Shown here one piece after another: positions 1 through 64,000 of a stretch of DNA of 64,000 bases. The notes beneath the pieces are model-generated. The model had not been told where the DNA came from. It was given only the letters and a program-made list of their open reading frames with translations, and ran no database searches. The number at the start of each line of letters is the position of its first letter. The first letter of the stretch is position 1. This stretch comes from Calothrix sp. PCC 7103 (GTDB lineage: Bacteria > Cyanobacteriota > Cyanobacteriia > Cyanobacteriales > Nostocaceae). The stretch covers positions 676,904 through 740,903 of the forward strand of contig NZ_KB217478.1 of the NCBI RefSeq assembly GCF_000331305.1. Reading direction: 5' to 3'. The position numbers and the translations under genes are program-made.

Positions 1-716
1 CCAGTTAAATCTGTTTCATTGCTATGTCCAGCAAAGAACAGCACATCCCATCCACATTCATCAGCTACTGCATTTGTAATATTTTCAATTACCTGCGAAG
101 CTGTTTGCTTAGGTTGCCACCCGACAAACTCCACATCTGCAATTTTTGATAATTCTTTTAAAGCTTCTCGTTCTGTTTGAAAGTCTAACCCAGTATCATC
201 ACCCAATATCGTTAAAATACGAGTGCGTCCTTTTTGCTGTAAAGAATGGTTAGGAGCGCTTATTTTTTGAGGAGAACGAATAATTTGAATTTTTCCAGCA
301 CTTTCCCAAGCTTCCCACGGAAATCGATCTAACTCAATAGGTGTACAAGTTAAAAATACCTTTATTGATTGAGCTTGATTTAAATTACTGCCTTCTTGAT
401 TCAATTGTGCGCGAATCTCATATAATTCAGCGCTTCGTAACCAACTATTAAATTCATAAGTCAACCTAGACTCAGCTTTAACTAGTTCTGCGTGCCAGTC
501 AACCGAAAGCTCCGCAACTCCTCCACCAACTGCTTTTCCCCGCATTTCATCTGACTGGTAAAAGTTTAAATACGCTTTCTTCCAATCTTGATATATTTGA
601 GTCAAAACGGTAGGATAATCAACCTGTGCAGCTAACCTTTGTCCCTGTCCCCAGGACAACTCAAACAAGCATATTTGTTCTACTTTTTGAACTTTTAAAC
701 TAAATGAATGTTCCAT
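1..716 (-). CDS. CHAT domain protein (caspase-like peptidase), 3'-truncated by window edge
   Basis: An open frame starts at an ATG (complement of 714-716) and runs off the left edge, giving 238 codons. The N-terminal part (FSLKVQKVEQICLFELSWG) resembles the leader region of large cyanobacterial CHAT/CHASE2-type proteins. Around residues 130-145 comes VFLTCTPIELDRFPWEAWE, then a Rossmann-like peptidase core ending in VLFFAGHSNETDL. His231 in the GHS motif would be the catalytic histidine of the CHAT fold (a clan CD, caspase-related peptidase). The catalytic cysteine should lie beyond the edge and is not visible. It is the last gene of a minus-strand run behind a sigma-70-like gene and a DUF1822 gene, with a 128-bp gap to the latter. 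Family assignment is fairly sure; substrate and role are unknown. Confidence 0.75.
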   Translation of the reverse strand, partial: MEHSFSLKVQKVEQICLFELSWGQGQRLAAQVDYPTVLTQIYQDWKKAYLNFYQSDEMRGKAVGGGVAELSVDWHAELVKAESRLTYEFNSWLRSAELYEIRAQLNQEGSNLNQAQSIKVFLTCTPIELDRFPWEAWESAGKIQIIRSPQKISAPNHSLQQKGRTRILTILGDDTGLDFQTEREALKELSKIADVEFVGWQPKQTASQVIENITNAVADECGWDVLFFAGHSNETDLT

Positions 717-844
717 AGCTCAGACGTAAAGGGGAAGGAAGTATCTTATTATTATGTATTTTTACTTACAGTTATATAACGAAAGTTTAAATTTTAATTT
801 AAATTTCCGGTAAAAATTCTAATTAATAGTAAACAGAGCCTGAA

Positions 845-2155
845 TTAACCTTCTAAGCCAAAAGGCTCAATTTCAAACACACTGGTATCATCAGCAGTCA
901 CCGTTACCCAGAAACGGTCATTAGAGTCACCAACAAGACGAGCAAAAAGAATTTCTTTGCTGCTATCACCTTTTAGAGTTTGGTCAAATAATTGTTGCGT
1001 TTTGTCACGAATTTCCAATCTTAAGGTTTGCGGTACTAGTGAACTTGAAATTGAGCGCACAACTATTAGTAGCATCCACTCTGAGTTATCTGATACTTCA
1101 TTTAATTCCCATATAATTGCATAAAGTCTTAAAGCCGCACATTCTGAGTTTAAATCACGTGAGGCGCCTTGAGCATTTAAAGGAATGTAAATTTTTTGTT
1201 TTTCTAATGCTTCTCGAATTGGTTGAAAATCTTCACTTATTCGTAATGCTGATGGTGCTAAAGTAGGCATTAACATCCATCCTAACTCCTCGGCAAGTGT
1301 ATCAATTTGATTACGTAACCAACGTCCAACATTGATAAAAGGTTGTATAGGCTGACTTTTTGTCGCATTCGTTACAACTTCTGCCCGTGTCAGTGCATAT
1401 AACCAGTTAATTAAATGAGGGTTACTAAACAGTGTTTTCGCTTCATCGACCGTCAAAAACTGTGAAGGATGCTTTCTTAATTCAGATTGTAGCCTAGTTA
1501 ACTTTTGCTGTAGGGTTGTGGATGTATCAGTTTGTGTAGTTGGTATACTAGACTCTACAGGTAAATTAATTGCCCTAGTATCTAAACACCGTAAATTTAG
1601 TAGTAGTGCATCAACGTCAAAACTAAGTACCTCATTTGGCAAACAATAAGTGAAATCTTCCTCAACTTGTAACGAAACTTGTTGTTTATAGCTTTGAAGC
1701 TGTGGATAACTCATAAACCCGAACACATTAGCTTGCTGTAATTCTTCCTCAACATGCATCAACACATAAAAATGCGCTGCTAATTTAGGTACATCGACAA
1801 CAGCAAAAGGAATACTTTGTAAATCTCCAACCTTACTTGCCGTAATTACACAAACCTTAAAGGCACCGACTTGAACATTACAAGCAGCAGCAAGTATATT
1901 TGAGTAAGCAGGTTGCCAAATAGTTGACTTAGATGCATCAACTTGTAAATCAGGTGCCCGTTCAGCCATCAATTGTTCAAAGCCAATAGTACCTAAAGCA
2001 TTAAGGTAAACTTGCCAACTTTGCTCAGGAGCAGATATTCCAAAACTTAATTGTGCCGCACGTTGAATTTGTTCAGGCGCCAACTCGGTGCTATCATCAC
2101 CAAGCGAGGAAAAATCGAGCCAGTCAGTGTCAGTAAAGTAAGTAGGTAGGTTCAT
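845..2155 (-). CDS. DUF1822 family protein
   Basis: A 436-residue soluble protein with no signal peptide or membrane segment. The opening (TDTDWLDFSSLGDDSTELAPEQIQRAAQL) and the LNALGTIGFEQLMAERAPDL stretch are characteristic of the DUF1822 family, which I know mainly from cyanobacteria. Its biochemical function is not known. The start codon is only 10 bp downstream of the stop of the sigma-70-like gene, so the two are almost certainly co-transcribed; the CHAT gene follows. A short heptamer repeat (AGTTAGG twice) sits in that gap, and no good ribosome binding site is visible, which suggests translational coupling. The recurrent company of sigma-like and CHAT genes suggests a role in a signalling or stress module, which is inference only. 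Confidence 0.8.
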   Translation of the reverse strand: MNLPTYFTDTDWLDFSSLGDDSTELAPEQIQRAAQLSFGISAPEQSWQVYLNALGTIGFEQLMAERAPDLQVDASKSTIWQPAYSNILAAACNVQVGAFKVCVITASKVGDLQSIPFAVVDVPKLAAHFYVLMHVEEELQQANVFGFMSYPQLQSYKQQVSLQVEEDFTYCLPNEVLSFDVDALLLNLRCLDTRAINLPVESSIPTTQTDTSTTLQQKLTRLQSELRKHPSQFLTVDEAKTLFSNPHLINWLYALTRAEVVTNATKSQPIQPFINVGRWLRNQIDTLAEELGWMLMPTLAPSALRISEDFQPIREALEKQKIYIPLNAQGASRDLNSECAALRLYAIIWELNEVSDNSEWMLLIVVRSISSSLVPQTLRLEIRDKTQQLFDQTLKGDSSKEILFARLVGDSNDRFWVTVTADDTSVFEIEPFGLEG

Positions 2156-2164
2156 GATGTACAG

Positions 2165-3577
2165 TTAGGAGTTAGGAGTTAAATTTATTTTGTCTAAACA
2201 AAGGCAAAGATGATGTGCAAACAGACTCTTAAGAGGTTGGTTACGAACCGGGTTTCTAGCTTCAGATTCTGCTTGTGCAATAATTTTAGTAATTTGTTCG
2301 TCTAGTGCTTCGTCAATTTTTTGGTCTAAGCATTGTAATTGTTTGATACCAGTAAACTGTTTAGCTATATCTATAACCTTGGTACGTAAAATTATTAATA
2401 CCCTTTGTCTAACATCAACACGTAAATCATTGAGTTTTAATAAGCGTGTTACTTCATACTGCTGTTTCACCCCTATTTGTGGTGCAATTTGAGTCATAGA
2501 CTCACCTCGACAGTGAAATAACTCTAAACCTTTAATAAATGATTCAACTTGTGACGGGCGCCGACGCTGAATTTTGATGATAAACTCTTCAATAACTTGG
2601 GAAAGTGCTTCGTCTAATGATTCTTTCAATTGTTGTTGATATAACTGAATAAATTCGTTTTCTTCTTGGTCTTCATTATTAGACATTGCTTGTTGACGCT
2701 CAACAATAGGCTGAACTTCCTCTTGGTGATAAGATAACGTTTTAATGGCGCCACCTCGTGCAATAATTCGGTACTCTCGCAACTTTGCTGCGATAAAGTG
2801 TAATTGCTTTAAAACAGCTTCATTACTATAAGTCTTTCCCGTTCGGGTTTTTAAATCTGTAGCAATGCGAGATAACTGCTCACCAGTTGGAGGTTGACAC
2901 GGTAACGTCGAACCCGCAATAAACTGTAAACGGTCTGCACGGTATACTACATGATAGCTAACCAGCAACTCACAAGCTTGTTGAACCTCAAACGTAGCCA
3001 AATGATACATCTCTCTTAAAATACGCTGTAATTCTTTAAGATTTGTATCATTCAATAATGCCCAATCGCTAACTAAAAACACACCATGCTGAAGTAAAAA
3101 ATGCTTCAACTCTGAATGCTGCTTTACATAGCGACTCACCCAAGTATTAAGCGAACCTTTATCAGGGTTATACGTTCTTAATATCGTCGTTGCCAAAGAT
3201 TGGTAAGAACCAGTTTCCTTTTGATGCTTAAAACTTTGTAGCACCTCATCTCCCAATACAATCGGTAATAAATCGTTATGATTAAAACCGTGTTGCCTGC
3301 CAAACTTAACGCCTAAATCAACGCAAGCCTGATAAATTTGATGAGAGATATAGCAGCGCAAACACATTTCAGCCATGCTGTTACTTGCTTGCTGTTTGTG
3401 CATTAAATGCCAAAGTTGTCGCTGTAATGCAACATCTGAGTCATCAGCAAGTGTAGGAAACTGTTTGTGTAGGTAGTCATTAGCTGCGTTAACCATTTCC
3501 CTAGAGGGTCTACCATCATTGGATAGCTTGACAAATCCACAATACTTAGATATTAGAGCCACAGTGATTTTACTCAA
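2165..3577 (-). CDS. Sigma-70-like regulatory protein of cyanobacterial type
   Basis: A 470-residue protein. Residues about 125-170 (TTILRTYNPDKGSLNTWVSR, then KHFLLQHGVFLVSDWALL) resemble a region-2-like segment of large cyanobacterial sigma-70-like proteins. The C-terminal part (FIKGLELFHCRGESMTQIAPQIG) looks like a region-4-type helix-turn-helix. It would be expected to direct RNA polymerase or bind DNA, but a true sigma activity is not shown. The only in-frame start near the 5' end is TTG at 3577. Just upstream is a very strong Shine-Dalgarno (AAGGAGGTG) and a five-codon ATG mini-ORF whose stop overlaps the TTG start. It heads the operon with DUF1822 and CHAT genes. Alternatives are an in-frame GTG a few codons later or the ATG at codon 28. 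Confidence 0.6.
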   Translation of the reverse strand: MSKITVALISKYCGFVKLSNDGRPSREMVNAANDYLHKQFPTLADDSDVALQRQLWHLMHKQQASNSMAEMCLRCYISHQIYQACVDLGVKFGRQHGFNHNDLLPIVLGDEVLQSFKHQKETGSYQSLATTILRTYNPDKGSLNTWVSRYVKQHSELKHFLLQHGVFLVSDWALLNDTNLKELQRILREMYHLATFEVQQACELLVSYHVVYRADRLQFIAGSTLPCQPPTGEQLSRIATDLKTRTGKTYSNEAVLKQLHFIAAKLREYRIIARGGAIKTLSYHQEEVQPIVERQQAMSNNEDQEENEFIQLYQQQLKESLDEALSQVIEEFIIKIQRRRPSQVESFIKGLELFHCRGESMTQIAPQIGVKQQYEVTRLLKLNDLRVDVRQRVLIILRTKVIDIAKQFTGIKQLQCLDQKIDEALDEQITKIIAQAESEARNPVRNQPLKSLFAHHLCLCLDKINLTPNS

Positions 3578-3708
3578 CGCTAATCATTATCAATTGTTTC
3601 ACCTCCTTCTGAGAATTGCAATTTGTACTTTGACACCCTTCTAGGCGCCTGTTAATGCTCTATTTCTGGCAGCAAAAAGCTTATGCAGTTTTTTCCAAGA
3701 CATCTTGT

Positions 3709-3730
3709 AGCATAGGCATCCTGCCTGTGC
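3709..3730. repeat. Dispersed hairpin (GCATAGGC/GCCTGTGC family)
   Basis: Imperfect inverted repeat GCATAGGC-atcct-GCCTGTGC in the spacer upstream of the sigma-like operon. A near-perfect relative lies at 18868-18889 and a looser one at 41486-41505, so this is a dispersed intergenic hairpin and not a gene-specific terminator. Confidence 0.5.
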
Positions 3731-3848
3731 AGTACATGTGTTTAGTTTTACCACAGAGACTATTAGACCACAGAGAAGAAGCAATTCCGGAATTTAAGCT
3801 AAATTAGGCGTAATTAGATTTTACCGATTTTAACTATTTATACTATCT

Positions 3849-4256
3849 ATGGCGCCAGTTCTGATATTTTGGCTATATAACAACTTTTTGATTTTTTATA
3901 CTGGGGGATTGATTGGCATTGGATTTATGAGTAGTTCCGTGGCTTTACCGAAAGTATTAGTGGCGCCTGTCATTATTTTACTAGGAGACCTGATTGGAGC
4001 AGCTTTGTGTTGGCTGCTATTAATAATTTGGGAAATTGTAGAAAATATATTCAACCTTCCAAAGCCACCAGATAACATCGGAATTTTCTTACTTTTTGTA
4101 ATGGCAATTGCAGGTTTTGGGCTGACTGGGTTAGCTAGTGGTACTTTTTTAGCTATCTCTTCGCATCCCAAACGCCGCATCTGCTTAATTTTATCTGTGA
4201 TTGCTGCGTTTATCGTAGCATTAGCAAATATATTAGAATATGGAATTAAGTCATAA
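3849..4256 (+). CDS. Small hypothetical membrane protein
   Basis: A 135-residue, very hydrophobic protein with about four membrane-spanning segments (roughly residues 5-27, 35-65, 78-105, 112-130) and few charged residues apart from the HPKRR loop near residue 107, expected to face the cytoplasm. I do not recognise the family. It is divergent from the sigma-like operon, and the start codon ATG lies within a GGCGCC-containing context. It is followed by a 34-codon open fragment and a hairpin, then the convergent helicase gene. Being open over its whole length with a clear membrane pattern supports a real gene, but no function can be given. Confidence 0.6.
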   Translation: MAPVLIFWLYNNFLIFYTGGLIGIGFMSSSVALPKVLVAPVIILLGDLIGAALCWLLLIIWEIVENIFNLPKPPDNIGIFLLFVMAIAGFGLTGLASGTFLAISSHPKRRICLILSVIAAFIVALANILEYGIKS

Positions 4257-4280
4257 TCAAGTTAAGTTAATAGTTTATGA

Positions 4281-4385
4281 ATTGTTCCTCAAACATTAGT
4301 TGAATTAGTTGTACCTCCTTCTGATATTGTTATCGAGTTTTACTCTCCTTTCAAACGTCAATTTACTGGTTATGCTGTTGAATAA
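4281..4385 (+). pseudogene. Short coding remnant
   Basis: A 34-codon open frame directly after a TGA, with no start codon, ending at TAA. The translation (LVELVVPPSDIVIEFYSPFK and a little more) has protein-like composition unlike the surrounding spacer. It may be the tail of a decayed gene. The family is not recognised. Confidence 0.2.
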
Positions 4386-4392
4386 ATAGTTT

Positions 4393-4491
4393 GCAACGGA
4401 TGCAACGGATGTAACGAATGATAAATTTGTTACAAATAAGGTATAGTTATTTAAAATCAACTATCCGCTAAATCCGTTCATCATCCGTTGC
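4393..4491. repeat. Inverted repeat GCAACGGATG...CATCCGTTGC
   Basis: Two arms (4393-4402 and 4482-4491, perfect 10 bp) with further AACGGATG copies between them, lying between the convergent membrane-protein and helicase genes. The right arm overlaps the last codons and the stop of the helicase. A related copy (ACGGATGTAAC and AACGAATGATAAA) occurs near 22511-22537. It is probably a dispersed repeat that may also end transcription. Confidence 0.45.
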
Positions 4492-12530: not shown

Positions 12531-12532
12531 GA

Positions 12533-12587: not shown

Positions 12588-12589
12588 CC

Positions 12590-19761: not shown

Positions 19762-19843
19762 GTAGGTTGGGTGGAGCGCGAGTGCGTAACCCAACATCTG
19801 ACCTTGTAATAGGTGTTGGGTTACGTTCCTCCACCCAACCTAC
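19762..19843. repeat. Large hairpin GTAGGTTGGGTGGAG...CTCCACCCAACCTAC
   Basis: Nested inverted repeats (GTAGGTTGGGTGGAG with CTCCACCCAACCTAC, and GTAACCCAACA with TGTTGGGTTAC) form an 82-bp hairpin. It overlaps the ruvB stop codon by a few bases. This is a classic cyanobacterial dispersed palindrome, and a decayed copy lies at 32364-32400. Confidence 0.7.
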
Positions 19844-20994
19844 AGAAGTGATAGCTGTTCTGAGGATGAACCTTGTTTGAAGCCCATGTGTTTGTATGCT
19901 GCTTGTGTGGCTGTTCTTCCGCGTGGTGTTCGGCTTAAGTAACCTATTTGCATGAGGTATGGTTCGTATACTTCTTCTATTGTTTGTGTATCTTCGCCTG
20001 TTGCGGCTGCTATTGTTTCTATTCCAACTGGACCGCCGTTAAATTGTTCAATTATTACACTCAACATTTTACGGTCTGTCCAGTCTAAGCCACATGGGTC
20101 TACTTGAAATAGTTCTAGTGCTTCGGCTGCGACAACTTTTGTTATTTCACCACATTCTTTTACTTCCGCATAATCACGTACACGTCTTAGTAATCTATTA
20201 GCTATACGTGGTGTTCCACGCGCACGACGAGCTACTTCTTGTGCGCCTTCTTCGTTTATGGGAGTGTTAAGTAGTTGAGCGCTACGGATAACTATTTTGC
20301 TGAGTTCTTCTGGTTCATAGAAGCGCAGTTTTTGCACTAAACCAAATCTATCGCGAAGTGGTGAGGTTAATGCTCCAACTCTTGTTGTGGCCCCGACTAA
20401 AGTAAATTTTACTAAGGGTATACTACGAGTTTTGGCGGTTGTACCTTTACCAACAGTGATATCCAGACGATAATCTTCCATCGCTGGGTATAAAATTTCT
20501 TCAGCCATTCGCGATAAACGGTGAATTTCATCGATAAATAATACATCGCCAGGTTTTAAACCAATTAGCAATCCTGCAATATCACGGGGACGCTCTAAAG
20601 CAGGTGCGCTGGTTATTTTACAGCCAACGCCCATTTCTGATGCGAGTATCATCGCCATCGTAGTTTTACCAAGCCCAGGTGGCCCATATAGTAATAAATG
20701 GTCGAGAACTTCGTTACGTGATTTTGCCGCTTTTATTGCTATTTCTAATACATCCTTTAAATCTTTTTGACCGATATAGTCACCAAATCGATGTGGACGA
20801 ATACTATCTTCTTGTTTGCCTTGTTCGTCTACTTTTGCTTCGGGTTGCAATAGAGCATTATCTGTTGAGGCCTCGGATGGCGCCAAATCTGGTGTTGGCT
20901 CTGATGCTTTTTTTGACTCCCTTGGACGTTTTTGGCGTTTTGGTTGTGGCTCGTCAGGGTTCTGTGACTGTTGTCTTGAGGAGATGATAGCCAT
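19840..20994 (-). CDS. ruvB: Holliday junction branch-migration helicase RuvB
   Basis: A 384-residue AAA+ ATPase. After a 60-residue charged, low-complexity N-terminal extension (Pro/Lys/Glu-rich, usual in cyanobacterial RuvB), the family core starts at [11 protein letters not shown]. Walker A is GPPGLGKT (104-111), Walker [10 protein letters not shown], sensor [20 protein letters not shown], and the C-terminal winged helix contains [17 protein letters not shown]. It drives branch migration of Holliday junctions with RuvA in recombinational repair. ruvA and ruvC are not nearby. It is divergent from hisF, and its stop lies in a hairpin repeat. Confidence 0.98.
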
Positions 20995-27356: not shown

Positions 27357-28595
27357 TTATGTGATGGGGAAACGTTCGGTGATACGTTTCATTGCTTCTT
27401 CAACGTTAGCGCGACTGTTGAATGCAGAAATGCGGAAGTATCCTTCACCTGCGGCGCCAAAACCAGAACCGGGTGTTCCAACAACGTTGCAGGTGTGCAG
27501 CAATTTGTCGAAAAAGTCCCAGCTTGATAGGTTATTGGGCGTTTTTACCCAAACATAAGGTGCATTTACGCCTCCATATACAGAAATACCGGCTTCTGTA
27601 AGTTTCTCACGGATGATTTTTGCGTTCTCCATGTAGAAATCTATCAATGCTTTGGTTTGTGCTTTGCCTTCTTCTGAATATACTGCTTCGGCGCCTCGCT
27701 GTACTATATAAGATACTCCATTAAATTTGGTAGACTGGCGCCGATTCCAAAGTTTCCATATTTCTACGCTGGAACCGTCGGCAGAAGAACCTGTTAATGT
27801 TTTGGGTACAACGGTTAAGGCACATCGCGTTCCTGTGAAACCTGCATTTTTGGAGAATGACCGAAATTCTATCGCACAATCACGGGCGCCTTCTATTTCA
27901 TAAATAGAATGAGGAATATCTGGGTCATTAATAAATGCTTCGTAAGCTGCATCGAAGAATATTATCGAACCGTTACTAAGCGCGTAGTCAACCCAAGCTT
28001 TGAGATGCTCTTTACTTGCTGTGGCGCCTGTAGGATTATTAGGGAAGCAAAGATAAATCAAATCAACTTTCTGTGAAGGAATTTCAGCAGTAAAGTTATT
28101 GTCGGCAGAAATAGGTAGATAAACTAAACCGCCATATTCACCTTTTTCATTGACATCCCCCGTATGTCCTGCCATAACATTTGTGTCTACGTATACAGGG
28201 TATACTGGGTCTGTGACTGCAATAGTATTATTATTGCCAAAAATATCTAAGATATTACCGCAGTCACATTTAGAACCATCAGAAATAAAAATCTCCGAAG
28301 CATCAACATCACACCCACGAGCTTGAAAATCGTGCTTGGCAATTTTCTCGCGTAACCAAGCATAACCCTGTTCAGGCCCGTACCCTTTAAAATCGTCTCG
28401 ATTTCCCATGTCCTCAACTGCTTTAATCATTGCAGTTCGACAAGCTTCGGGCAATGGTTCGGTAACGTCACCTATTCCTAAGCGAATAACTTTAGCATCA
28501 GCATTCATTTCTGCAAATGCATTCACCCGACGTGCAATCTCTGGGAACAGATAGCCAGCTTTGAGCTTGAGATAATTATCGTTAATCGTTGCCAT
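27357..28595 (-). CDS. dapL: LL-diaminopimelate aminotransferase
   Basis: A 412-residue fold-type I PLP enzyme. Typical DapL stretches are [42 protein letters not shown] and [12 protein letters not shown]. The PLP lysine is near residue 249 in [12 protein letters not shown]. It transaminates tetrahydrodipicolinate directly to LL-diaminopimelate in the lysine/peptidoglycan pathway, bypassing the succinylase branch, as in cyanobacteria, plants and chlamydiae. It is monocistronic. Length and start agree with the family. Confidence 0.97.
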
Positions 28596-31131: not shown

Positions 31132-32334
31132 ATGCCGCAAGTCGTAATTGTAGGGGCAGGACCAACTGGCGCCACACTGGCTTTACTTTTAGCCAAACGT
31201 GGTATTACTGTATCGTTAGTCGAAGCAACCACAGATTTTTATCGAGTGTTTCGTGGTGAGGGGTTAATGCCTAGTGGACTAGATGCCCTCAAACAGATGG
31301 GTTTGTCTGAGATACTACAGCAAATACCACACCGAGAATTTAGCGCTTGGGAAGTTATATTAGGCAAAAAGACACTTTTTCGTGTTGCTGAACCGATGGA
31401 ATCAAACTTTCCACCATGTACATTAGTATCACAACCACCTTTACTGACAGCTTTAATTGAACAAGCTCAAACATTTCCTGAATTTGAGTTTATTCAAGGA
31501 GTTCCAGTTAAAGATTTATTACGAGTTGATGACCGGGTAGCAGGTGTCAAACTTGCAGATGGTAGAGAGATTTTTGCCTCGATTACAATTGGAGCAGATG
31601 GTCGTAACTCGGTTATACGTCAACGTGCGGGTTTACATTTAGAAAAGCAACCCAAAGATATAGATATTCTTTGGTTTAAGCTTGCCGATAGTCCTAACTT
31701 TGTATCCGAGAATATATTTTATGCCGTTTCTAACGGAGATAGAAGCTTTGGTCTTTTTCATGGGGCAGAAGAAGGTAAGTTACATTTGTCTTGGATATTG
31801 TTCCCGCAAGATGAAATCGATCAAAAACCTGCACAATGGGCGCCTATTTTCGCTTCAGTGGCGCCAGCTTGGATGGCAGAACATATTATAAACCATGCAG
31901 AAACTATCGAAAGACCAATTAAATTATCGGTGGTAGTCGGTCGTTGTCCTTCTTGGTATGCATCTGGTGTAATACTCCTAGGTGATGCAGCGCACCCAAT
32001 GTCACCTATTCGCGCACAAGGTATTAATGTTGCATTACGCGATGTAATTGTGACAGCTAATTATATTGTACCATTATTACAAGCCAAAGCTACAGGCGCC
32101 GAACTTGATATAGCGCTGGCAAAAATTCAAGCTGAACGTGAACCAGAAATTATCCGCGCACAGCAACTTCAATCTGAAGAAGCAGACCAAGCAGAAATTT
32201 TGCGTAGATACAATCTTTTTCGTCCAATTCTGTTTTTTGGCGCCCGCTTATTACGTCAAAGAATTCGTCACAAGTGGGTAAAACGTCAGCATGAGATGCG
32301 CGTTGGTGTCACTCAAGTTAGTTTAATGGTCTAA
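31132..32334 (+). CDS. FAD-dependent aromatic-type monooxygenase
   Basis: A 400-residue flavoprotein of the PHBH/UbiH-like class. The dinucleotide-binding motif GAGPTG (residues 8-13) is followed by an acidic strand end (SLVEA). Asp-Gly near TIGADGRNSVIR and the GDAAHPMSPIRAQGINVALRD motif near residue 285 complete FAD/ribityl binding. It would hydroxylate an aromatic or quinone-like substrate with NAD(P)H and O2; the substrate is unknown. A good ribosome site (TAGGAG) precedes the ATG. It is separated from the polysaccharide genes by a hairpin. Confidence 0.88.
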   Translation: MPQVVIVGAGPTGATLALLLAKRGITVSLVEATTDFYRVFRGEGLMPSGLDALKQMGLSEILQQIPHREFSAWEVILGKKTLFRVAEPMESNFPPCTLVSQPPLLTALIEQAQTFPEFEFIQGVPVKDLLRVDDRVAGVKLADGREIFASITIGADGRNSVIRQRAGLHLEKQPKDIDILWFKLADSPNFVSENIFYAVSNGDRSFGLFHGAEEGKLHLSWILFPQDEIDQKPAQWAPIFASVAPAWMAEHIINHAETIERPIKLSVVVGRCPSWYASGVILLGDAAHPMSPIRAQGINVALRDVIVTANYIVPLLQAKATGAELDIALAKIQAEREPEIIRAQQLQSEEADQAEILRRYNLFRPILFFGARLLRQRIRHKWVKRQHEMRVGVTQVSLMV

Positions 32335-48877: not shown

Positions 48878-50329
48878 AATATTTTGGTTCTTCAGTAGTT
48901 GTTATGCTAAATTGTTAAATAAAGATGTCAACTATTATTAATTTATTGTAAAAAATATTACAAAAATGCTTGATAGGATTGACTTGTAAGTCTTATTTAT
49001 TATTGACTGTATGTACGTTCATTGTATTTTAGGGTACATTTACAGTCATGACTAATAAAAAAGATATAAAAATCTTATCACAAATTCTGGATATAGACGA
49101 AGTAAAAGTTATATCGCACAGCATTTATAACGAAATTGGAATAATTTTACGAACAGAGCCAATAAAGCTGTATAGTGTATGTCCATCTTGTGGTACGGAG
49201 AGTCATAAACTACATCAAAACCATCGTCATATTATTAAAGATTTACCTTTTGGAGAGAAACCAATTTTTTTAGAAATAAATCGGCGCCAATTTAAATGTA
49301 GAATTTGTAAAAAACCGTTTAGTGAAGAATTTGAGTTTGCAAGAAAGAAAAGAACCTATACAAATCGCCTTGCAAACAAAATAATACAAGAAGTTTTAGA
49401 AAACGACATACATAGCGTGGCATCAAAAGGTATAGTCACAACAGAAGAGATAGAAAGAATGTTAAAAGATGCATCTGAAAAACTAAATTTAACAAAACCT
49501 AAGAATTTAAAAAGGCTGGGAATTGATGAAATAGCTTTAAGAAAAGGAAAGGGTAACTACTGTGCAGTGTTAATAGATTTAGATACATCTAAACCAATCG
49601 CTATTTTGAACGCACGTACACAAGGAGTAATCGAGGAAGTTCTTATCAGTTGGGGAGTTGAGGTGTTAGAGCAAATTAAGGAAGTGAGTATAGATTTATG
49701 GCAAGGGTACAAAAATTTAGTGATAGAATTAATGCCTAACGTTCAAGTCGTCGCCGATAGATTTCACGTAATGGTGCAAGTAAATAAAGAATTAGACACA
49801 CAGAGGAAGAGAGAAAAGTACAAAATAGAGGAACTAATTAAATTAGCAGAAACATCTGAAAAGAAAGATGAATATGAAAAAATATTAGAAGGATTGAAAA
49901 ATAGTAAATATGCTTTACTTAAAAATGAAAAGGACTTAAATGAAGAACAAATAAAGAAATTAATTCAAGTAAAAGCTGTATCTCCTACTTTAAAAATGAT
50001 GCATGAATTAAAGGAAAAACTTAGAAAAATTTTTAATAAAACTAATCATTGGTATCCAGCAGTATTTAAATTAGGTATGTGGCTTTCAAAAGCTAAAACA
50101 TATTTTCCAAATAGCAATAACACTTTTATTCGTTGGTTTGATGAAATTATTGCTTATTTTGATAATGGCACGACTAGCGGCGCCGTTGAAGGTATTAATA
50201 ATAAAATAAAATTAATTAAGCGCTCGGCTTATGGGTTTAGAAATTTTGAAAATTTCCGAGTTCGATGCTTATTAGCTTGGCACTTTAATTGTTAGTTTAG
50301 CATAACAAGTACTGAAGAGCCAATATTTT
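48878..50329 (+). mobile_element. ISL3-family insertion sequence with 8-bp target duplication
   Basis: The element proper is 48886-50321 (1436 bp). Left terminal repeat 48886-48913 and right terminal repeat 50294-50321 match at 25 of 28 positions (GGTTCTTCAGTAGTTGTTAT type). They are flanked by identical 8-bp AATATTTT (48878-48885 and 50322-50329), the target duplication length known for ISL3. It contains one intact transposase gene. Full ends plus perfect duplication suggest a fairly recent insertion. Confidence 0.93.
49048..50295 (+). CDS. ISL3-family transposase
   Basis: A 415-residue intact transposase. An N-terminal zinc finger (CPSCGTESHKLHQNHRH, then CRICKKPF) is followed by a DDE catalytic core: GIDEIALRKGKGNY (first Asp near residue 166), SIDLWQGYKN, VADRFHVMVQ, and SGAVEGINNKIKLIKRSAYG (Glu near residue 385), ending in FRVRCLLAWH. 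Family length and all motifs agree with ISL3. It is unusually Lys-rich and AT-rich even for this region, consistent with arrival by transfer. The stop overlaps the right terminal repeat. Confidence 0.96.
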   Translation: MTNKKDIKILSQILDIDEVKVISHSIYNEIGIILRTEPIKLYSVCPSCGTESHKLHQNHRHIIKDLPFGEKPIFLEINRRQFKCRICKKPFSEEFEFARKKRTYTNRLANKIIQEVLENDIHSVASKGIVTTEEIERMLKDASEKLNLTKPKNLKRLGIDEIALRKGKGNYCAVLIDLDTSKPIAILNARTQGVIEEVLISWGVEVLEQIKEVSIDLWQGYKNLVIELMPNVQVVADRFHVMVQVNKELDTQRKREKYKIEELIKLAETSEKKDEYEKILEGLKNSKYALLKNEKDLNEEQIKKLIQVKAVSPTLKMMHELKEKLRKIFNKTNHWYPAVFKLGMWLSKAKTYFPNSNNTFIRWFDEIIAYFDNGTTSGAVEGINNKIKLIKRSAYGFRNFENFRVRCLLAWHFNC

Positions 50330-55985: not shown

Positions 55986-57512
55986 ATGAATATTAATGAC
56001 TGGCAAGTTTTAGCAAACAGCCCTCTAGGTAAACTACTTGAGAATAACAATCAAGCCTTTTGGGTTTGTTCCGCTGATTTAAGTCAAATAGTTTACACAA
56101 GCCCTACTTACAAAAAAATATTTGGGCGCCAAATGACTAATCTCAATGAAGGTGCAAAGTCTTTTCTCGAAGGCATTTGCACTGAAGACAAAGAGAGAAT
56201 CAATACAGCACTTCAAACTTTAACACAACAAGGCGCCCAATTAAATGAAGAATACCGTATTGTTCGCCCTGATGGTCAAGTGAGGTGGATACATAACCGT
56301 GCGCTTGCTTCGTTCGACATTAGTGAAAACATACAATATATTACAGGTATTGCCGAAGATGTAACTGAGCGTAAAGTCGCATCTTTGAACTTAGTGGCTG
56401 ATAAAGAGAAATATCTTCAGCTTTTTCATAACCTAGACGCTGTTTTCTGGGTTTCTGACACTAGCGTAAGCGAATGCTATTATATCAGCCCAGGATATGA
56501 AAAAATTTGGGGTCGTGCTTGTGCCGAAATTTATTCTAACCCTATGTCTTTTCTCAAATCCATTCATCCTGATGATGTAGAACGAGTAATTGCTGTTGCG
56601 GTTGGTAAAAATGCCTGTCATATGGACGAAGAATATCGTATTATTCGTCCTGATGGTACACTGCGTTGGGTATGTGACCGAACCTTTCCTATATACGACG
56701 AGCATGGTAATTTATTTAGAGTGGCTGGTGTTGCTAAAGATATCACCCATCGTAAGCAAGCCGAAGAACAAACCTTAAAAGCCTTACAACGTGAGCGTGA
56801 ACTGAGCGAATGTAAAACTAAATTTATTGCTATAACCTCCCATGAAATTCGCACACCACTTGCAACGATTCAATCTTCGTGTGATATGTTGCAGCACTAT
56901 GCAAATAATCTCACTGAAGACAAAAAGCAAGCACATTTTTATAAAATAGAAACTTCTGTCAAACGTATTACAGAAATAGTTCAAAATATACTACTATTAT
57001 CTGAAGTTGAGGCGAATGCTCTACAATTTCAACCTACTAATGTAGATGTGGTACAGTTATGCCAGGATATAATTAGCAGTTTAATTAATCAAACTGAAAA
57101 AAATCGCCTCAAGTTTATGGCGCCGACTTCCAGTATAAAAGCACTACTTGACTCTCAACTTGTCTGTCACATTATTACAAATTTATTAGAAAATGCCTTC
57201 AAATATTCACCTATTAATAGTGAAGTGAAATTAGATGTGAATTGTTATGGGCAAACGATAATATTTGATGTTGAAGATCAAGGTATTGGTATTCCAACGG
57301 AGGACATGTCTCGTATTTTTGATTCTTTCTATCGTGCTAATAATGTAGCCACTATTTCTGGTACTGGCTTAGGGTTATCAATAGTTAAACAGTGCGTAGA
57401 CTTACACAAAGGTGAAATAGCCGTTAATAGCGTTATAGGTAAGGGTGCAACTTTTAGCGTCAAGCTTCCTACTGTAGTTCAAACTAAATGCTCCAACCAT
57501 CTGACACTTTAA
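55986..57512 (+). CDS. PAS-PAS sensor histidine kinase
   Basis: A 508-residue soluble kinase from ATG 55986 (a TTG at 55947 would add 13 residues). Two PAS/PAC sensors (QAFWVCSADLSQIVYTSPTY and AVFWVSDTSVSECYYISPGY) each end in EYRI[IV]RPDG...DVTERK-like motifs and look like a tandem duplication. HisKA has His286 in TSHEIRTPLATI, and HATPase is complete (NLLENAFKYS, GTGLGLSIVKQCVDLHKG). No receiver. It belongs to the same kinase clade as 39186, 40325 and 50938. It is the last gene of the rightward run and converges on the antiporter gene with a 20-bp gap. Confidence 0.93.
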   Translation: MNINDWQVLANSPLGKLLENNNQAFWVCSADLSQIVYTSPTYKKIFGRQMTNLNEGAKSFLEGICTEDKERINTALQTLTQQGAQLNEEYRIVRPDGQVRWIHNRALASFDISENIQYITGIAEDVTERKVASLNLVADKEKYLQLFHNLDAVFWVSDTSVSECYYISPGYEKIWGRACAEIYSNPMSFLKSIHPDDVERVIAVAVGKNACHMDEEYRIIRPDGTLRWVCDRTFPIYDEHGNLFRVAGVAKDITHRKQAEEQTLKALQRERELSECKTKFIAITSHEIRTPLATIQSSCDMLQHYANNLTEDKKQAHFYKIETSVKRITEIVQNILLLSEVEANALQFQPTNVDVVQLCQDIISSLINQTEKNRLKFMAPTSSIKALLDSQLVCHIITNLLENAFKYSPINSEVKLDVNCYGQTIIFDVEDQGIGIPTEDMSRIFDSFYRANNVATISGTGLGLSIVKQCVDLHKGEIAVNSVIGKGATFSVKLPTVVQTKCSNHLTL

Positions 57513-57532
57513 TTAGTAATTTTGGCTTCTAT

Positions 57533-59251: not shown

Positions 59252-59299
59252 TTTTTTTATTTTTGGTAAAAGGAAAACACCCTCAATACAATAGTAATA

Positions 59300-61012
59300 T
59301 TAACGATTCACTTGTAACCATTTTTCTAAACTAACCAATAACCATAGTTTTACACCGTATCTTCTCCACGTATCACCACGGTAGTTTAGCCAATCTTTAA
59401 TTAAACTTTGATTAAAATACGGCGCCGTCATTGCGTTTCTATTTAATAATAAACTTCTGGCTTCGCGTTGCCAATATTTACGGAAACCTAGCTGAACTGG
59501 TACCATCATGCCACTTTTGGGACGATTGATAATCGCATCGGGTACTATATCCGCTACTGCTTGCTTTAAAACCGCTTTTTCTTCGACTCCAGACAATTTA
59601 TACTGTGGAGGTATTTGCATACTTAAATCTACAACCCGTTGATCGAATAAAGGTGAAAGTCCTAACAATCCAGCAGCAGTACTCGTATTATTGACTTTAG
59701 TCAATATCTGGTCGGCACCTTTATATTTAATATTAATTGCCATTAGTCTATTTAAATAGTTATCTTTTGAATATAAATCTTCAGTAAATACCGATGGGGC
59801 ATTACTAACTGCTTTCCATACGTCCGGTTTAAGTAGTAGCGGTAAATCAATAGCACATTTTTGGAAAGAAGTTAAATAAGCTTGTAAAGTATCTTGATTT
59901 GTCACCGAAGCATATAAATTATTTATCAACATCGGTTGATTTTTGGGACCACCAAAACAAGGGTCTCCACCTTCACCATTGAGTATTGTTCCAACATATT
60001 CCCGTGCAAGTTGAGCTACCAATAAATTTGGCACAGTTAAAGGATCTCCTATCGGGTCATCCAAATACGTCATTACTTCAGGCAAACGTTCCCACATATC
60101 TTTAAAAGTAATTTCGAGAATGTGGTGCTGAGTTTGACAATGTTCTGCCACCAAACTCGAAAATTCTAACTCATTTGGACATTCGGCACCAAAATGAATC
60201 GAAAAAGTATGAACTGGTGCGTTATGAAGCTTACTTACAAGTGCAGTCACACTACTAGAGTCTAAACCACCCGAAAGCAAAACTCCCACAGGTTGATTTT
60301 GAGGTAAATATTCTTTAATAACTTGGTCTAAAAGCTGCCGTAACTTTTCCCCATGCCATGATAAAGGTTTATCACTATCAATAATTTGCTCCTTAAGTTG
60401 CCAAAAAGAATGAATTTCTCCCGAAGGTAATTTTAGTAGCGTTCCTGGACGCAATTCTTTAACATCATTCCACAAAGTTTTCTCTCCAGGAACAAAAGCA
60501 CAGCACAAATAATCACGCAACGCTACCACATCTAAGTCTTTAGAACGATATGGTGCAAGTGTTCTTAATAAAGGCGCCAACCAACGAGTCGAACCATTCG
60601 TTGTATAGTAAATAGTACGGGAACCAGTACAATCGCGTCCTGAATATAAAATTTGTTCATCTTTATCCCAAATTACCAGTCCAAACATACCAACTAGTAA
60701 TTTTAAAGATTCAATACCCAACTTTTCCCAAAGCTGCGCGACTAATTGAATATCATTATTTATTGAGATGCCATAAGCAAGACTTAACTCTCGTCGATTA
60801 CTCAACCAGACATCACCAACAACAACAAACCGTTGGTTATTGCTCAACGCAACCGCTTTACTATCGGGTGCAATAATTATAACTTTATTATCTCTCCAAA
60901 ATATATTCTCTACCGAGAGTGAGTCTACATAGCCATAAGCTATCTGCCAGGTGGTTACTACATTACCTGGTGCAGCTATAGATTCACGGTTAAAAAAAGC
61001 GTTAAATAGCAT
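59300..61012 (-). CDS. Asparagine-synthetase-like protein without the glutaminase cysteine
   Basis: A 570-residue two-domain protein. The N-terminal Ntn-type region (about 1-190: FVVVGDVWLSNRRELSLAYG, LKLLVGMFGLVIWD, GRDCTGSRTIYY) lacks the catalytic Cys2; it begins MLFNAFFNR instead of MCGI. The C-terminal ATP-pyrophosphatase region has SGGLDSSS (247-254), LDDPIGDP and LNGEGGDPCFGG. It can probably adenylate a carboxylate but not hydrolyse glutamine, as in beta-lactam synthetases and lasso-peptide cyclases. It is divergent by 17 bp from an amidase gene, which might supply ammonia or work on the same product. No peptide precursor gene was seen nearby. Substrate unknown. Confidence 0.85.
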   Translation of the reverse strand: MLFNAFFNRESIAAPGNVVTTWQIAYGYVDSLSVENIFWRDNKVIIIAPDSKAVALSNNQRFVVVGDVWLSNRRELSLAYGISINNDIQLVAQLWEKLGIESLKLLVGMFGLVIWDKDEQILYSGRDCTGSRTIYYTTNGSTRWLAPLLRTLAPYRSKDLDVVALRDYLCCAFVPGEKTLWNDVKELRPGTLLKLPSGEIHSFWQLKEQIIDSDKPLSWHGEKLRQLLDQVIKEYLPQNQPVGVLLSGGLDSSSVTALVSKLHNAPVHTFSIHFGAECPNELEFSSLVAEHCQTQHHILEITFKDMWERLPEVMTYLDDPIGDPLTVPNLLVAQLAREYVGTILNGEGGDPCFGGPKNQPMLINNLYASVTNQDTLQAYLTSFQKCAIDLPLLLKPDVWKAVSNAPSVFTEDLYSKDNYLNRLMAINIKYKGADQILTKVNNTSTAAGLLGLSPLFDQRVVDLSMQIPPQYKLSGVEEKAVLKQAVADIVPDAIINRPKSGMMVPVQLGFRKYWQREARSLLLNRNAMTAPYFNQSLIKDWLNYRGDTWRRYGVKLWLLVSLEKWLQVNR

Positions 61013-61029
61013 AATGCGCTCGTCATGTT
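61013..61029. promoter_or_regulatory. 17-bp divergent start region
   Basis: The start codons of the asparagine-synthetase-like and amidase genes are only 17 bp apart. Promoters and ribosome sites must therefore lie inside the opposite coding regions or overlap, which suggests tight co-regulation or leaderless transcripts. Confidence 0.4.
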
Positions 61030-62307
61030 ATGAACCAATCCCTATACAATCTAACTCAACATTACTTCAAAAAAATTTACAAGTTAAATCCAGAATTAAA
61101 CGCTTTCATTACCGTTACTGAGCAAGAAGCGTTATTAACAGCAACACAACTTGACTCAGAAATCGACGCTGGTAAGGTCAAAAGATTATTGCATGGTATA
61201 CCGATAGTAATAAAAGATAATATAGACACTGCGAACATAATTACTACTGTTGGTACAGAATTGTTTCACCAACGTATACCTGTAGTAGATGCGGATATTG
61301 TAACAAGATTAAAACAAGCAGGCGCCATTATTCTGGGTAAAACTAATTTAAGCGAGTTTGGCGCCGATATTACAGGAAACAACCGTTTCTATGGTAACGT
61401 TCGCAGTGCGGTAAATCCGAATTATTCTCCAGGTGGTTCTTCGAGTGGTACAGCGACAGCAGTTGCAGCAAATTTATGTGTTGGTGGTATTGGTACAGAC
61501 ACAGGAGGTTCGATACGTGTCCCTGCTAGCTGGTCTGGAATAGTTGGATTGCGACCTACTCAGTCTATAATTAGTACAGATGGTGTTTTTAAACGGGCAC
61601 CAAGTTTTGATACAGTTGGTGTAATGGCAAGTAAAGTCACAGATGTAGAAATATTATTTAATGCCATTTTACACCCTCTGGCTTTACCCAATATGTCACC
61701 TCCATCTACATATAAGTTAGGTGTTATTAATAACTATACATTTCGTGGAGTTGATACAGAAGTTGCCGCCGCAATTCAACGTGTGATATATAGTTGTAAA
61801 CAAGCTGGCATAGAAGTTATTAATATAGAAAGTGAATTATTAAGTAATTTTAATAAAGCAAATTACTCAATTCTTGCTTTATATGAATTTAACCAAGTAT
61901 TACAAAAATATCACAATCAACATCATTTATTTGGTGATAAAGTTAATTATGATTTACGTAAAGGCGCCGCTATTTCTGGTAACAGCTACCAAAAAGCTCA
62001 AAAGCAAAGACTTTGGGAGTTCGGTAATATCCAAAATATATTCCGACAAGTTGATGCAATAATTACACCAACTACTACAACAACGGCGCCAAATATTCAA
62101 GCAGATACAAAAGTCTATCAATTAAATAGAAAGTTTGTTCTACCGTTTAGTTATTTTGGTTTACCATGTGTATCTATACCTTGTGGGTTAAGTCCACAAG
62201 GTTTACCTATTGGTTTACAAATTGTCGCCAATTCTTTTCAAGATAAGTTAATTTTGAAAATAGCCGATGATTTAGAGTCCATAATTAATTACTACTTGAT
62301 AAAGTAG
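61030..62307 (+). CDS. Amidase-signature hydrolase
   Basis: A 425-residue amidase with the complete Ser-cisSer-Lys triad: Lys62 in IVIKDNID, cis-Ser about 137 in SPGGSSSGTA, nucleophile Ser161 in GTDTGGSIRVPAS. The family hydrolyses amides to acid and ammonia. It is shorter than GatA and lacks GatA-specific C-terminal features, so it is not obviously part of GatCAB. The divergent asparagine-synthetase-like partner suggests an ammonia- or amide-linked pathway. Its last 23 bp overlap the convergent HMA2-like gene. Confidence 0.92.
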   Translation: MNQSLYNLTQHYFKKIYKLNPELNAFITVTEQEALLTATQLDSEIDAGKVKRLLHGIPIVIKDNIDTANIITTVGTELFHQRIPVVDADIVTRLKQAGAIILGKTNLSEFGADITGNNRFYGNVRSAVNPNYSPGGSSSGTATAVAANLCVGGIGTDTGGSIRVPASWSGIVGLRPTQSIISTDGVFKRAPSFDTVGVMASKVTDVEILFNAILHPLALPNMSPPSTYKLGVINNYTFRGVDTEVAAAIQRVIYSCKQAGIEVINIESELLSNFNKANYSILALYEFNQVLQKYHNQHHLFGDKVNYDLRKGAAISGNSYQKAQKQRLWEFGNIQNIFRQVDAIITPTTTTTAPNIQADTKVYQLNRKFVLPFSYFGLPCVSIPCGLSPQGLPIGLQIVANSFQDKLILKIADDLESIINYYLIK

Positions 62308-62824
62308 ATGGTGCCTGTGACGAGCGTTTAGGTAAAACAAACATTGTTGCTGATTTTAAGGTTTTCATTGTGGCTTTTAGAGTTTGTAAAGCGCGCTCCC
62401 AAAAGTCAGGTTTAGAAGGTTGTTTTGTAATTCCTTTACGAACCTTATTTATATTACGTGTGCTATCAATTAAATTTACAATGGCGTCAAAAATAGCCGA
62501 TGTAATTGACGAAGCTGTAAATCGTTTCGGAGTAGCAATATTTGGAGCCGTTTGAATCAAATTAATAAAATGTTCGCGCATTTTTTCATCATAAATATCT
62601 GATTCATAACTGATGGCAATAGATGCAGCTTGAGTATTGATGCGAACCTGTGTAACTCTAGAATCTGACTCGACTAAAGCCTTTAATTTCTCAGCATATT
62701 TAGAATCTTTTGCCAGTCGATATACATGAAAACGAACACGTCCATGAATTTCGTGGGCGACACTGTAAGCTATTTGATTACTTGCTGTATTTTTATCATT
62801 CATATTATATAATTTTATGTTCAT
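62285..62824 (-). CDS. HMA2-like domain protein
   Basis: A 179-residue protein. The N-terminal ferredoxin-like part (VAHEIHGRVRFHVYRLAKDS, VTQVRINTQAASIAISYES) resembles HMA2 domains without CxxC. The C-terminal half is basic, Ser/Thr-rich and moderately hydrophobic (ATMFVLPKR). The ATG at 62803 (MNDKNTASNQ) is an alternative start. It is similar in kind to the protein at 26702-27217, and no metal-transport ATPase is nearby. It overlaps the amidase gene end by 23 bp. Function unknown. Confidence 0.65.
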   Translation of the reverse strand: MNIKLYNMNDKNTASNQIAYSVAHEIHGRVRFHVYRLAKDSKYAEKLKALVESDSRVTQVRINTQAASIAISYESDIYDEKMREHFINLIQTAPNIATPKRFTASSITSAIFDAIVNLIDSTRNINKVRKGITKQPSKPDFWERALQTLKATMKTLKSATMFVLPKRSSQAPSTLSSSN

Positions 62825-62916
62825 TAAGTTTAATTGTATAATAATATAATTTCGTATAAAATAATGATTATATCCTGTTCCTTGTGATGTATATATAATG
62901 AGCCTAAAGACATAAA

Positions 62917-64000
62917 TTATATAAATTTTAAATAATTTTCTCTAACTAGGGGTAGAACATTTCTTCCAACGTTCTCGCACTCTTCTAAGTGAGGATAACC
63001 GGATAAAATAAATACCGTTATTCCTAAATTAATATACTTGACTATATATTCGGCTACCTGTTGATAACTACCAACAATCGCCATTCCAGCACCGCTTCTA
63101 ACTATGGAAATACCTGCCCATAGATGTGGTTCAATATACCATTCGTCGGTAGAATTAGCCCGTAACTCCCATTGGCGCCCTTGCCCAACGCTTTCACGCT
63201 TAGTATTAGGATATTCGGTAACACGGGCTTTATCTAGCACATCAGGGTTAACTTTAGATATCATTTCTCTTGCAGCTTCTCTTGCTTTTATCTCAGTAGA
63301 GCGAGTAATAATGTTAACTCGTACACCGTACCTTACCAACTTTTCACGACCACAAGCTTTTAATAATAGACGCATTTTATGAATTCGAGCTTCTATTTGT
63401 TCAAACGTTTCAGCCCACATTAAATAAACATCACTCAACTCGGCGCCTACTTGTTGCGCCATGTCACTAGCACCACCAAAATAAAATGTAGGGCCACCTG
63501 GTTGTAAAGGTAAAGTTTCTAATTTGCTACCTTGAAGCTGATAAAATTCTCCATCAAAATCAAAAGCAATATTATTCAACCATAACTGACGGCAAATTTG
63601 CATAAACTCACGAGTACGACGATATCGTCCGTCATGGTCTAAATAATCACCATACATCGCTTGCTCAGTTGGTCTACCACCTGTAACAATATTTAGTGAA
63701 AGGCGCCCTCGACTGATATGGTCTAATGTAACAGCCATTTTTGCAAGAACAGGTGCGCTAATAAAACCTGGACGCACTGCCACCATTGCACTTGCATAGT
63801 TAGTTTGTGTTAGTACTGCTGTCGCTAAAGTCCAAGCTTCCAAAGTATGATGAGTAAAACCCATACCAATTAAAAGCTGTTTAAAGCCAAATTTCTCAGC
63901 AGTTTTAAATATTTGTACTATATATTCAAATTCTGGTGGACGTTCCCAAGTTGGTAATCCTAAGTAAAAACCATCACCAGAAACAGGAGCGCACCAATTA
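62917..64000 (-). CDS. LLM-class flavin-dependent monooxygenase (SsuD-like), 5'-truncated by window edge
   Basis: The frame stays open to the right edge, giving at least 360 codons. The visible start of the sequence, WCAPVSGDGFYLGLPTWERP, is the usual N-terminal strand of alkanesulfonate monooxygenases, so ATG 63864 is internal. Further motifs are SAMVAVRPGFISAPVLAKMA, DHISRGRLSLNIVTGG (flavin binding), YFGGASDMAQQVGA and GSYQQVAEYI. It uses FMNH2 and O2, probably to cleave a C-S bond of sulfonates or sulfones. It would need a partner reductase, which is not visible. The true start lies beyond the window. Confidence 0.85.
   Translation of the reverse strand, partial: NWCAPVSGDGFYLGLPTWERPPEFEYIVQIFKTAEKFGFKQLLIGMGFTHHTLEAWTLATAVLTQTNYASAMVAVRPGFISAPVLAKMAVTLDHISRGRLSLNIVTGGRPTEQAMYGDYLDHDGRYRRTREFMQICRQLWLNNIAFDFDGEFYQLQGSKLETLPLQPGGPTFYFGGASDMAQQVGAELSDVYLMWAETFEQIEARIHKMRLLLKACGREKLVRYGVRVNIITRSTEIKAREAAREMISKVNPDVLDKARVTEYPNTKRESVGQGRQWELRANSTDEWYIEPHLWAGISIVRSGAGMAIVGSYQQVAEYIVKYINLGITVFILSGYPHLEECENVGRNVLPLVRENYLKFI

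Follow-up and report, generated by a model that had tools for sequence, protein, structure and literature searches.

For some three decades, the origin and function of HIP1 (GCGATCGC), the highly iterated palindrome (HIP) of cyanobacteria, have been an open question. We analyzed a 64,000-nucleotide stretch of the Calothrix sp. PCC 7103 genome (hereafter the window; contig NZ_KB217478.1, here C7, positions 676904-740903), throughout which a different palindrome, GGCGCC, recurs. For this strain Elhai 2015 (PMC4390886) gave GGCGCC as the alternate HIP, counted 14 HIP1 per Mb, found GATC reduced to 16% of expectation, and described two methyltransferases of GRCGYC specificity. Our data agree with the statements of that paper on the strain: the motif is the same, HIP1 was counted at 14.1 per Mb, GATC in sampled DNA was at 0.14 of expectation, and two methyltransferases of GRCGYC type were found. 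HIP1 and GGCGCC are alike in being short, GC-rich palindromes that occur about once per kb in genes and spacers, and HIP1, like GGCGCC, goes with methyltransferases (PMC4390886); they differ in sequence, in the methyltransferase and in the positions occupied. The other close systems are BsaHI, HgiDI and HindVP (GRCGYC; PMC2413257), whose methyltransferases share a recognition stretch with the enzyme described below. In relatives a HindVP-type gene is adjacent to the methyltransferase, whereas in the genus of PCC 7103 that gene was not found and the site is enriched rather than avoided. According to Elhai 2015 none of the enzymes with GRCGYC specificity had a known methylation site; this gap is filled by M.BsaHI, of the same homologue group as the HindVP system, which methylates the central C of GRCGYC (PMC2413257), and by a table that includes GRCGYC among the methylated motifs of Haemophilus influenzae Rd (PMC8565308).

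The switch from HIP1 to GGCGCC is thus already in print for PCC 7103, and we extend it here to a genus and to the absence of a restriction partner. The account in Elhai 2015 concerns the single strain and 19 kb of strain D253; ours covers all seven available genomes of the genus. Ours also links the switch to the absence of a restriction partner and adds a possible second origin. No later paper extending the GGCGCC case was present among the matches listed by our search, whose coverage lay mostly outside the subscription literature.

Exact counting in the window gave 87 GGCGCC sites (starts from 1163 to 63702, no strand assigned), no HIP1 and one CGATCG. A first-pass annotation of the window had estimated by eye about 87 sites, no HIP1 and about 3 sites expected; base composition gave 2.2. 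It had also placed the sites in genes, on both strands and in spacers, and indeed 44 were in plus-strand open reading frames (ORFs), 39 in minus-strand ORFs, and 4 in spacers or at edges. At least one site was present in 29 of the 38 non-overlapping ORFs of at least 100 amino acids. The complete genome (G000; 11,584,393 bases, 12 contigs) contained 17,704 copies, compared to 8 of the reversed control CCGCGG. Eco29kI cuts CCGCGG, and the avoidance of this word is probably due to an Eco29kI-type restriction gene that adjoins a methyltransferase in the genome. Since the control is itself avoided, the GGCGCC/CCGCGG ratio overstates the excess, and Markov figures are the fair ones. These were obtained from 304 kb of the genome (12 of 20 retrieved chunks plus the window; 8 HIP1-bearing chunks were left out). 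This sample held 480 GGCGCC, or 960 on both strands. A second-order Markov model, fitted after masking of the motif, predicts 19.3, which gives an observed/expected ratio (O/E) of 49.8. Without masking, in a sample that also took in 15 methyltransferase loci, O/E was 25.1 and GGCGCC ranked first of 4,096 hexamers. The hexamers ranked next were its own overlaps (O/E 6.1 or less), and the runner-up palindrome, CGCGCG, reached 2.8. The excess claimed by the first-pass annotation therefore stands under Markov correction, and HIP1 is infrequent outside the window as well, with 163 copies genome-wide compared to 58 of its reversed control. As a HIP should be, GGCGCC is a short palindrome in gross genome-wide excess. 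A dispersed mobile repeat carrying GGCGCC, or an artefact of base composition, would hardly produce this pattern, and we give either almost no credence: no flanking consensus was found over 2,180 sites on both strands (at most 0.042 bits per position, GC 38%), and other all-G/C palindromes, except CGCGCG and GCGCGC, were mostly rare or absent in the sample.

In the same sample 407 of the 480 sites were coding and 72 non-coding (1.70 vs. 1.10 per kb), and the coding sites were divided 215/90/102 among the three frames, so that GGCGCC, like a HIP, occurs both inside and outside genes and in every reading frame. The predominance of frame 0, in which the word reads GGC GCC (215/407), would fit a codon-usage or amino-acid effect, i.e., a preference for certain Gly-Ala codons. 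We regard this as very improbable, given the 192 sites in the other two frames, the 72 in spacers, and the strength of the effect itself: 215 of 401 Gly-Ala pairs (54%) were spelled GGCGCC, versus 8 expected from codon use (4.5-8 across estimates). Conversion of Gly-Ala pairs to GGCGCC was replicated in new chunks of the genome (224/464) and in the congener G442 (282/487). The proportion was 57/193 in the HIP1-bearing islands described below and 0/189 in eight outgroup loci.

GGCGCC was counted in 581 genomes in all and HIP1 in 66 of them. In the family scan of 217 genomes, GGCGCC occurred at 1,150-1,711 per Mb in all seven genomes of the genus, and the maximum among the 210 others was 110.8 per Mb. 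Six of the seven, of different size, lie at similar density (1,511-1,711 per Mb). Sampled regions of five congeners gave a GGCGCC O/E of 23-27 and no HIP1, and HIP1 counts were 31-163 per genome in all seven. Aligned DNA of the congeners diverges by 5-15%, which implies that the GGCGCC-rich state is not recent. GGCGCC as the alternate HIP is a trait of the whole genus and not of one strain. Exceptional HIPs were described by Elhai 2015 (PMC4390886) as sporadic and not falling into clades, from switches known in single strains; here the switch is genus-wide.

Fifteen matches to PF00145 were found in the PCC 7103 genome; two belong to a single gene, as its halves, and some are broken. One (L025, C7:8004469-8005407, 313 amino acids; matches to PF00145 and TIGR00675) has an orthologue in all seven genus genomes (81-99% identity to the PCC 7103 copy); 55 of the 210 other family genomes contain homologues at E<=1e-60. 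Matches were scored for at most 10 candidates per genome in the family and at most 5 in the class-wide survey. In a tree of 35 of 40 intended enzymes (five were dropped by a motif filter) the genus copies form one clade (support 100/99), with enzymes from genera g196 and g11 nearest (92/98). The pattern YYYRHPRxYxRR[GA]IF..EPSPTI is present in all seven genus copies, and its recognition stretch, HPR.Y.RR[GA], is common to 33 of the 35 orphan and paired enzymes, the exceptions being those of G120 and G251. We therefore take L025 to be a putative BsaHI/HindV-type (GRCGYC) C5-cytosine methyltransferase, its activity, target base and specificity being predicted from these similarities. A methyltransferase matching GGCGCC elsewhere in the genome had been foreseen in the first-pass annotation. 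At the level of sequence one is present, and its predicted type is GRCGYC, which includes GGCGCC, so that strict GGCGCC specificity does not hold. A contribution may also come from L021/L022, of which the L022 methyltransferase adjoins a TdeIII-type restriction gene, or from methyltransferases outside PF00145.

The restriction partner was not found anywhere in the genus. Of 45 non-genus loci with the methyltransferase homologue, 36 had a HindVP match next to it, four of these being fragments; none of the 7 genus loci had one. In a genome-wide search for the HindVP family (PF09519, E<=1e-10) no match was found in the seven genus genomes, and 42 of the 210 other family genomes were positive. Three of the non-genus neighbors matched RE_HindVP (PF09519) at E 2e-154 to 9e-161, and BsaHI-family motifs were seen in the neighbors of 35 of the 45 non-genus loci (all three motifs in 21, at least one in 35). 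The genus thus lacks a complete GRCGYC restriction-modification system, as the endonuclease was not found in any of the seven genomes. The adjacency counts omit nine carriers found at the class level (G038, G117, G124, G130, G172, G213, G245, G253, G315); the eight of these outside the family are HIP1-rich, and G245 has a HindVP match. The loci of G105 and G288 showed no HindVP neighbor and were too short to decide. A gene was scored as present on any PF09519 match at E<=1e-10 or any enzyme match at E<=1e-60, even if it was a fragment or interrupted by stops. By this definition GGCGCC is avoided where both genes occur: the median density of such genomes (n = 39) was 0.71 per Mb, compared to 5.07 for those that have neither gene (n = 152; Mann-Whitney p = 2e-6). 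A comparison of genus medians by presence or absence of the enzyme also showed a difference (p = 0.012), relatedness being controlled only at the genus level. At the sequence level, then, the genus is full of GGCGCC and poor in HIP1, carries an orthologous methyltransferase, and has no detectable HindVP gene.

Among the 66 genomes with HIP1 counts, those with more than 1,000 GGCGCC per Mb were exactly the eight that combine an unpartnered enzyme with scarce HIP1: the seven of the genus and the distant G231. None of the 66 was rich in both words. Sixteen further genomes of the family gave an enzyme match and none to HindVP; every one was HIP1-rich (1,751-8,091 copies), and GGCGCC did not exceed 42.6 per Mb in any of them. 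Of 388 genomes drawn from the class as a whole, 39 carried the enzyme at E<=1e-75, 27 of them outside the family. HIP1 was low among these 27 in G231 (74), G120 (45) and, less so, G387 (518). G120 and G387 keep a restriction neighbor, and their GGCGCC counts were only 45 and 94. We leaned little on the contrast with G120, since its enzyme forms a long branch and the recognition stretch was not seen in it. G231 held 9,489 GGCGCC versus 304-343 in three congeners, two of which are HIP1-rich (3,110 and 3,424). The third, G065, has a HIP1 count of 134, no close enzyme homologue and 343 GGCGCC. In the tree the G231 enzyme is well separated from that of the genus, and no HindVP neighbor was found at its locus, to which the search was confined. 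In G231, 314 of 624 Gly-Ala pairs read GGCGCC versus 121 expected. As a candidate for another alternate HIP, G231 (L078-L080, L103-L114) combines GGCGCC with GGCGCT/AGCGCC (8-mers CGGCGCCG and CAGCGCCG). G231 is a possible second, independent origin of the GGCGCC-rich state.

In our judgment it is somewhat probable that GGCGCC is an alternate HIP that spread, in a lineage from which HIP1 had been lost, by way of an orphan GRCGYC methyltransferase, the enzyme being assigned by homology. An ancestor would have had a GRCGYC methyltransferase and endonuclease pair, of which the cutting enzyme was then lost. The orphan methyltransferase would modify the central cytosine (GG-m5C-GCC, where m5C is 5-methylcytosine), and a methylation-guided step of DNA repair would favor all mutations by which a methylated G-m5C site becomes complete. 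GGCGCC would then be made and kept wherever protein code or spacer permits, up to about half of Gly-Ala codon pairs. HIP1, the usual holder of a role in repair or chromosome maintenance, would have to be lost first; where HIP1 is still present, an orphan GRCGYC-type enzyme would leave little mark.

Site turnover was followed in alignments (those of congeners below 250 bases or 78% identity and those of outgroups below 150 bases or 60% were dropped). Between G441 and G439, at about 86% identity, 34 of 43 GGCGCC were kept, whereas among 127 control hexamers (GC-rich, xxCGxx) 47 were kept (p = 2e-6); with the direction reversed the figures were 34 of 41 and 47 of 149 (p = 6e-9). Measured against all other G/C hexamers, the reverse direction gave 34/41 vs. 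52/133 (p = 7e-7). At the positions of PCC 7103 GGCGCC sites, outgroups read GGNGCN in 24 of 28 alignments, which represent few distinct sites, and the states included GGGGCC, GGAGCC, GGCGCA and GGCGCT. None of these four could be converted by a Vsr-like very-short-patch repair that acts on deaminated 5-methylcytosine, turns GGTGCC into GGCGCC and overshoots. Such repair further predicts depletion of GGTGCC, which is instead the most enriched one-off neighbor of GGCGCC in the 304 kb sample (O/E 2.05). The prominence of that same neighbor, together with the 76 of 176 differing hexamers at congener GGCGCC sites that read GGTGCC or GGCACC (in pairs that share branches), does speak for such repair; we rate it as improbable, if somewhat less so than a codon effect. 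A hot spot of m5C deamination was considered as well; the GGTGCC enrichment and the close pairs hinted at it, and the distant comparison did not support it.

Spacing was examined in sampled DNA, with 8 of 20 first chunks (HIP1-bearing) and 3 of 20 second chunks left out. GGCGCC pairs less than 25 bp apart numbered 2 versus 15 expected in PCC 7103 and 6 versus 21 in G442, and Gly-Ala pairs within 25 bp of another site were seldom converted (1/19 and 5/23; the effect was weak in G231). In the first PCC 7103 sample the deficit reached below 50 bp (17/62 converted, null 0.54); the first conversion count drops 8 of the 401 Gly-Ala pairs, which an out-of-frame site overlaps. Exclusion is confined to neighbors closer than about 25-50 bp. 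At distances above 50 bp the nearness of another site does not lower conversion, and gaps between sites are near exponential. Gly-Ala pairs more than 800 bp from another site showed no higher conversion (0.57, 0.28 and 0.41, with nulls of 0.55, 0.49 and 0.59). Near-exponential gaps and the absence of extra conversion at isolated pairs mean that a set point of about one site per 1000 nt was not seen; Elhai's repair model predicts such a set point, which is not part of what makes a HIP as such. In the model as set out in Elhai 2015 (PMC4390886) a second enzyme copy was also thought critical. PCC 7103 does have a second copy (L026, contig C10), 59% identical to L025. The congeners G437 and G440, with 19,393 and 7,475 GGCGCC, each showed a single enzyme match at E<=1e-60 among the 10 candidates scored (out of 21 and 16, respectively), and a second copy therefore seems not to be needed. 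Neither element of the model is supported by our data.

The scarcity of pairs closer than 25 bp suggests constrained placement, as would be expected if methylated GGCGCC, like HIP1, served chromosome organization, replication or regulation and were favored by direct selection with no repair bias. The conservation of sites between species and the similar density in six of seven genus genomes point the same way. Sites nevertheless occur in any frame and in spacers, with no flank consensus and near-random spacing above 50 bp, and the conversion of half of all Gly-Ala pairs looks like indiscriminate spread. A hairpin between two nearby copies would be a simple reason for the short-range exclusion and could by itself explain the scarce close pairs; hairpins, slippage or enzyme crowding may all be causes. 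Direct selection is the strongest of the alternatives, and we consider it unlikely.

Several observations weigh against takeover by way of an orphan GRCGYC methyltransferase. We infer the activity, target base and specificity of the methyltransferase. Other GRCGYC words are depleted in the PCC 7103 sample (GACGTC 0.14, GGCGTC 0.40), and methylation alone does not account for this. Among the 16 HIP1-rich family genomes in which the enzyme match has no HindVP counterpart, three have partial or stop-broken enzyme matches (G471, G479, G498). G231 is a weaker case than the genus: its GC content is 54%, its GGCGCC excess over Markov expectation only 2.6-fold, its CCGCGG control also raised (2,450 vs. 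172-367 in congeners), and its strongest hexamers include GGCGCT/AGCGCC (GGCGCT at 4.1 times Markov expectation), which is not a GRCGYC site. With at most two origins, the conjunction of unpartnered enzyme, scarce HIP1 and abundant GGCGCC is no statistical proof. Retention of GGCGCC between G441 and G439 was not clearly above that of all other G/C hexamers in the first direction (34/43 vs. 52/80, p = 0.15). At about 94% identity the difference shrinks, and in two of four congeners GGCGCC was retained no better than the G/C controls (G437, 28/36 vs. 0.785; G438, 19/28 vs. 0.786). The conservation between close relatives that the first-pass annotation proposed as a check is seen at about 86% identity and not in these two. 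Finally, C-to-T change in GGCGCC was not raised in the far comparison (2/42 vs. 82/651 at other CpG).

The HIP1 copies that remain in PCC 7103 were bunched, among the places listed, in a few islands on C7, at about 646-662k, 2104-2108k, 2300-2355k, 2864-2873k and 2939-2966k (L005, L013, L015, L016, L019, L020). Eight island chunks contained 16-56 GATC per 20 kb compared to 0-13 in 12 others, and GGCGCC was lower overall (8-30 vs. 24-40 per 20 kb). Over 40 chunks of the genome GGCGCC and GATC counts were negatively correlated (rho = -0.54, p = 4e-4). The islands look like DNA imported from HIP1-type cyanobacteria and still not overwritten. If foreign, they would provide a clock for the speed at which the host word enters imported DNA. 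In-place replacement of HIP1 by GGCGCC was rejected: it was seen in 0 of 41 alignments at HIP1 sites of eight outgroup loci (few distinct sites). The first-pass suggestion that GGCGCC has taken the place of HIP1 is therefore right for the genome as a whole and wrong position by position. By eye, island L005 contains ORFs resembling WD40, amino-acid permease, aquaporin, peptidase and amidase genes.

A broader reading, which we put forward tentatively, is that HIPs would be footprints of domesticated restriction-modification systems. The target word of an orphan would invade the genome by methylation-guided repair once the resident HIP is gone and become a lasting genus trait; the rise of HIP1 would be an early example of this process, and a successful one. 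If this is true, an orphan enzyme combined with loss of the resident HIP becomes a rule that predicts which genomes switch, a combination seen in one genus and possibly in G231. A genus of seven switched genomes, its partnered relatives and a possible independent case form a natural experiment, in which methyltransferase, absence of the partner and resident HIP can be separated by comparison and models for the spread of such words become testable.

Other GGCGCC-rich genomes from the class scan were rejected as further origins. G365 (3,074 GGCGCC) has a HIP1 count of 3,992, a GC content of about 50% (from readable sampled contigs; 9 of 22 showed GC 0.0 and were presumably masked), a count about 1.6 times that expected from composition, and no enzyme homologue at E<=1e-20. 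G244 (GC 53%, HIP1 5,134) had GGCGCC below expectation in a 30-kb sample, and G312 and G319 (671 and 560 GGCGCC sites) are HIP1-rich. Outside the 66 HIP1-counted genomes, family f16, small GC-rich genomes that are probably picocyanobacteria, and genus g51 had up to about 1,900 and about 600-700 GGCGCC per Mb, with CCGCGG at about 0.4-0.8 of GGCGCC in both, so that neither shows an excess like that of the genus. In 100 kb of G065 (L115-L119), 8-mers of the GGCCCTG type exceeded expectation about 4- to 6-fold, and this word is perhaps another HIP1 replacement.

Eight palindromes had zero copies in the PCC 7103 sample (ACGCGT, CCATGG, CTCGAG, GTGCAC, TGCGCA, GTCGAC, CGTACG, CCGCGG), which points to a heavy load of restriction systems. 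The C5-methyltransferase genes at loci L024, L033 and L035 of this genome are broken or fragmentary, with internal stops.

Within the window GGCGCC density is uneven. Positions 32400-57520 (no strand assigned; GC 33%) contain 15 sites in 25.1 kb, or 0.6 per kb, compared to 1.8-2.0 per kb elsewhere, and GATC occurs there at 0.68 per kb vs. 0.28-0.31 in the rest. Judged by eye from translations, this stretch encodes histidine-kinase/response-regulator-like signaling genes and an ISL3-like transposase (49048-50295), and it is perhaps younger or AT-richer DNA. Five sites are clustered at 27453-28028 (27453, 27690, 27737, 27885 and 28023; no strand assigned) in an aminotransferase-like ORF on the minus strand (27357-28595, named by eye). 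A close pair at 31839-31865 (starts 31839 and 31860, no strand assigned), 21 bp apart, is a rare configuration. A RuvB-like ORF on the minus strand (19840-20994, named by eye) served as the anchor for retrieving outgroup loci.

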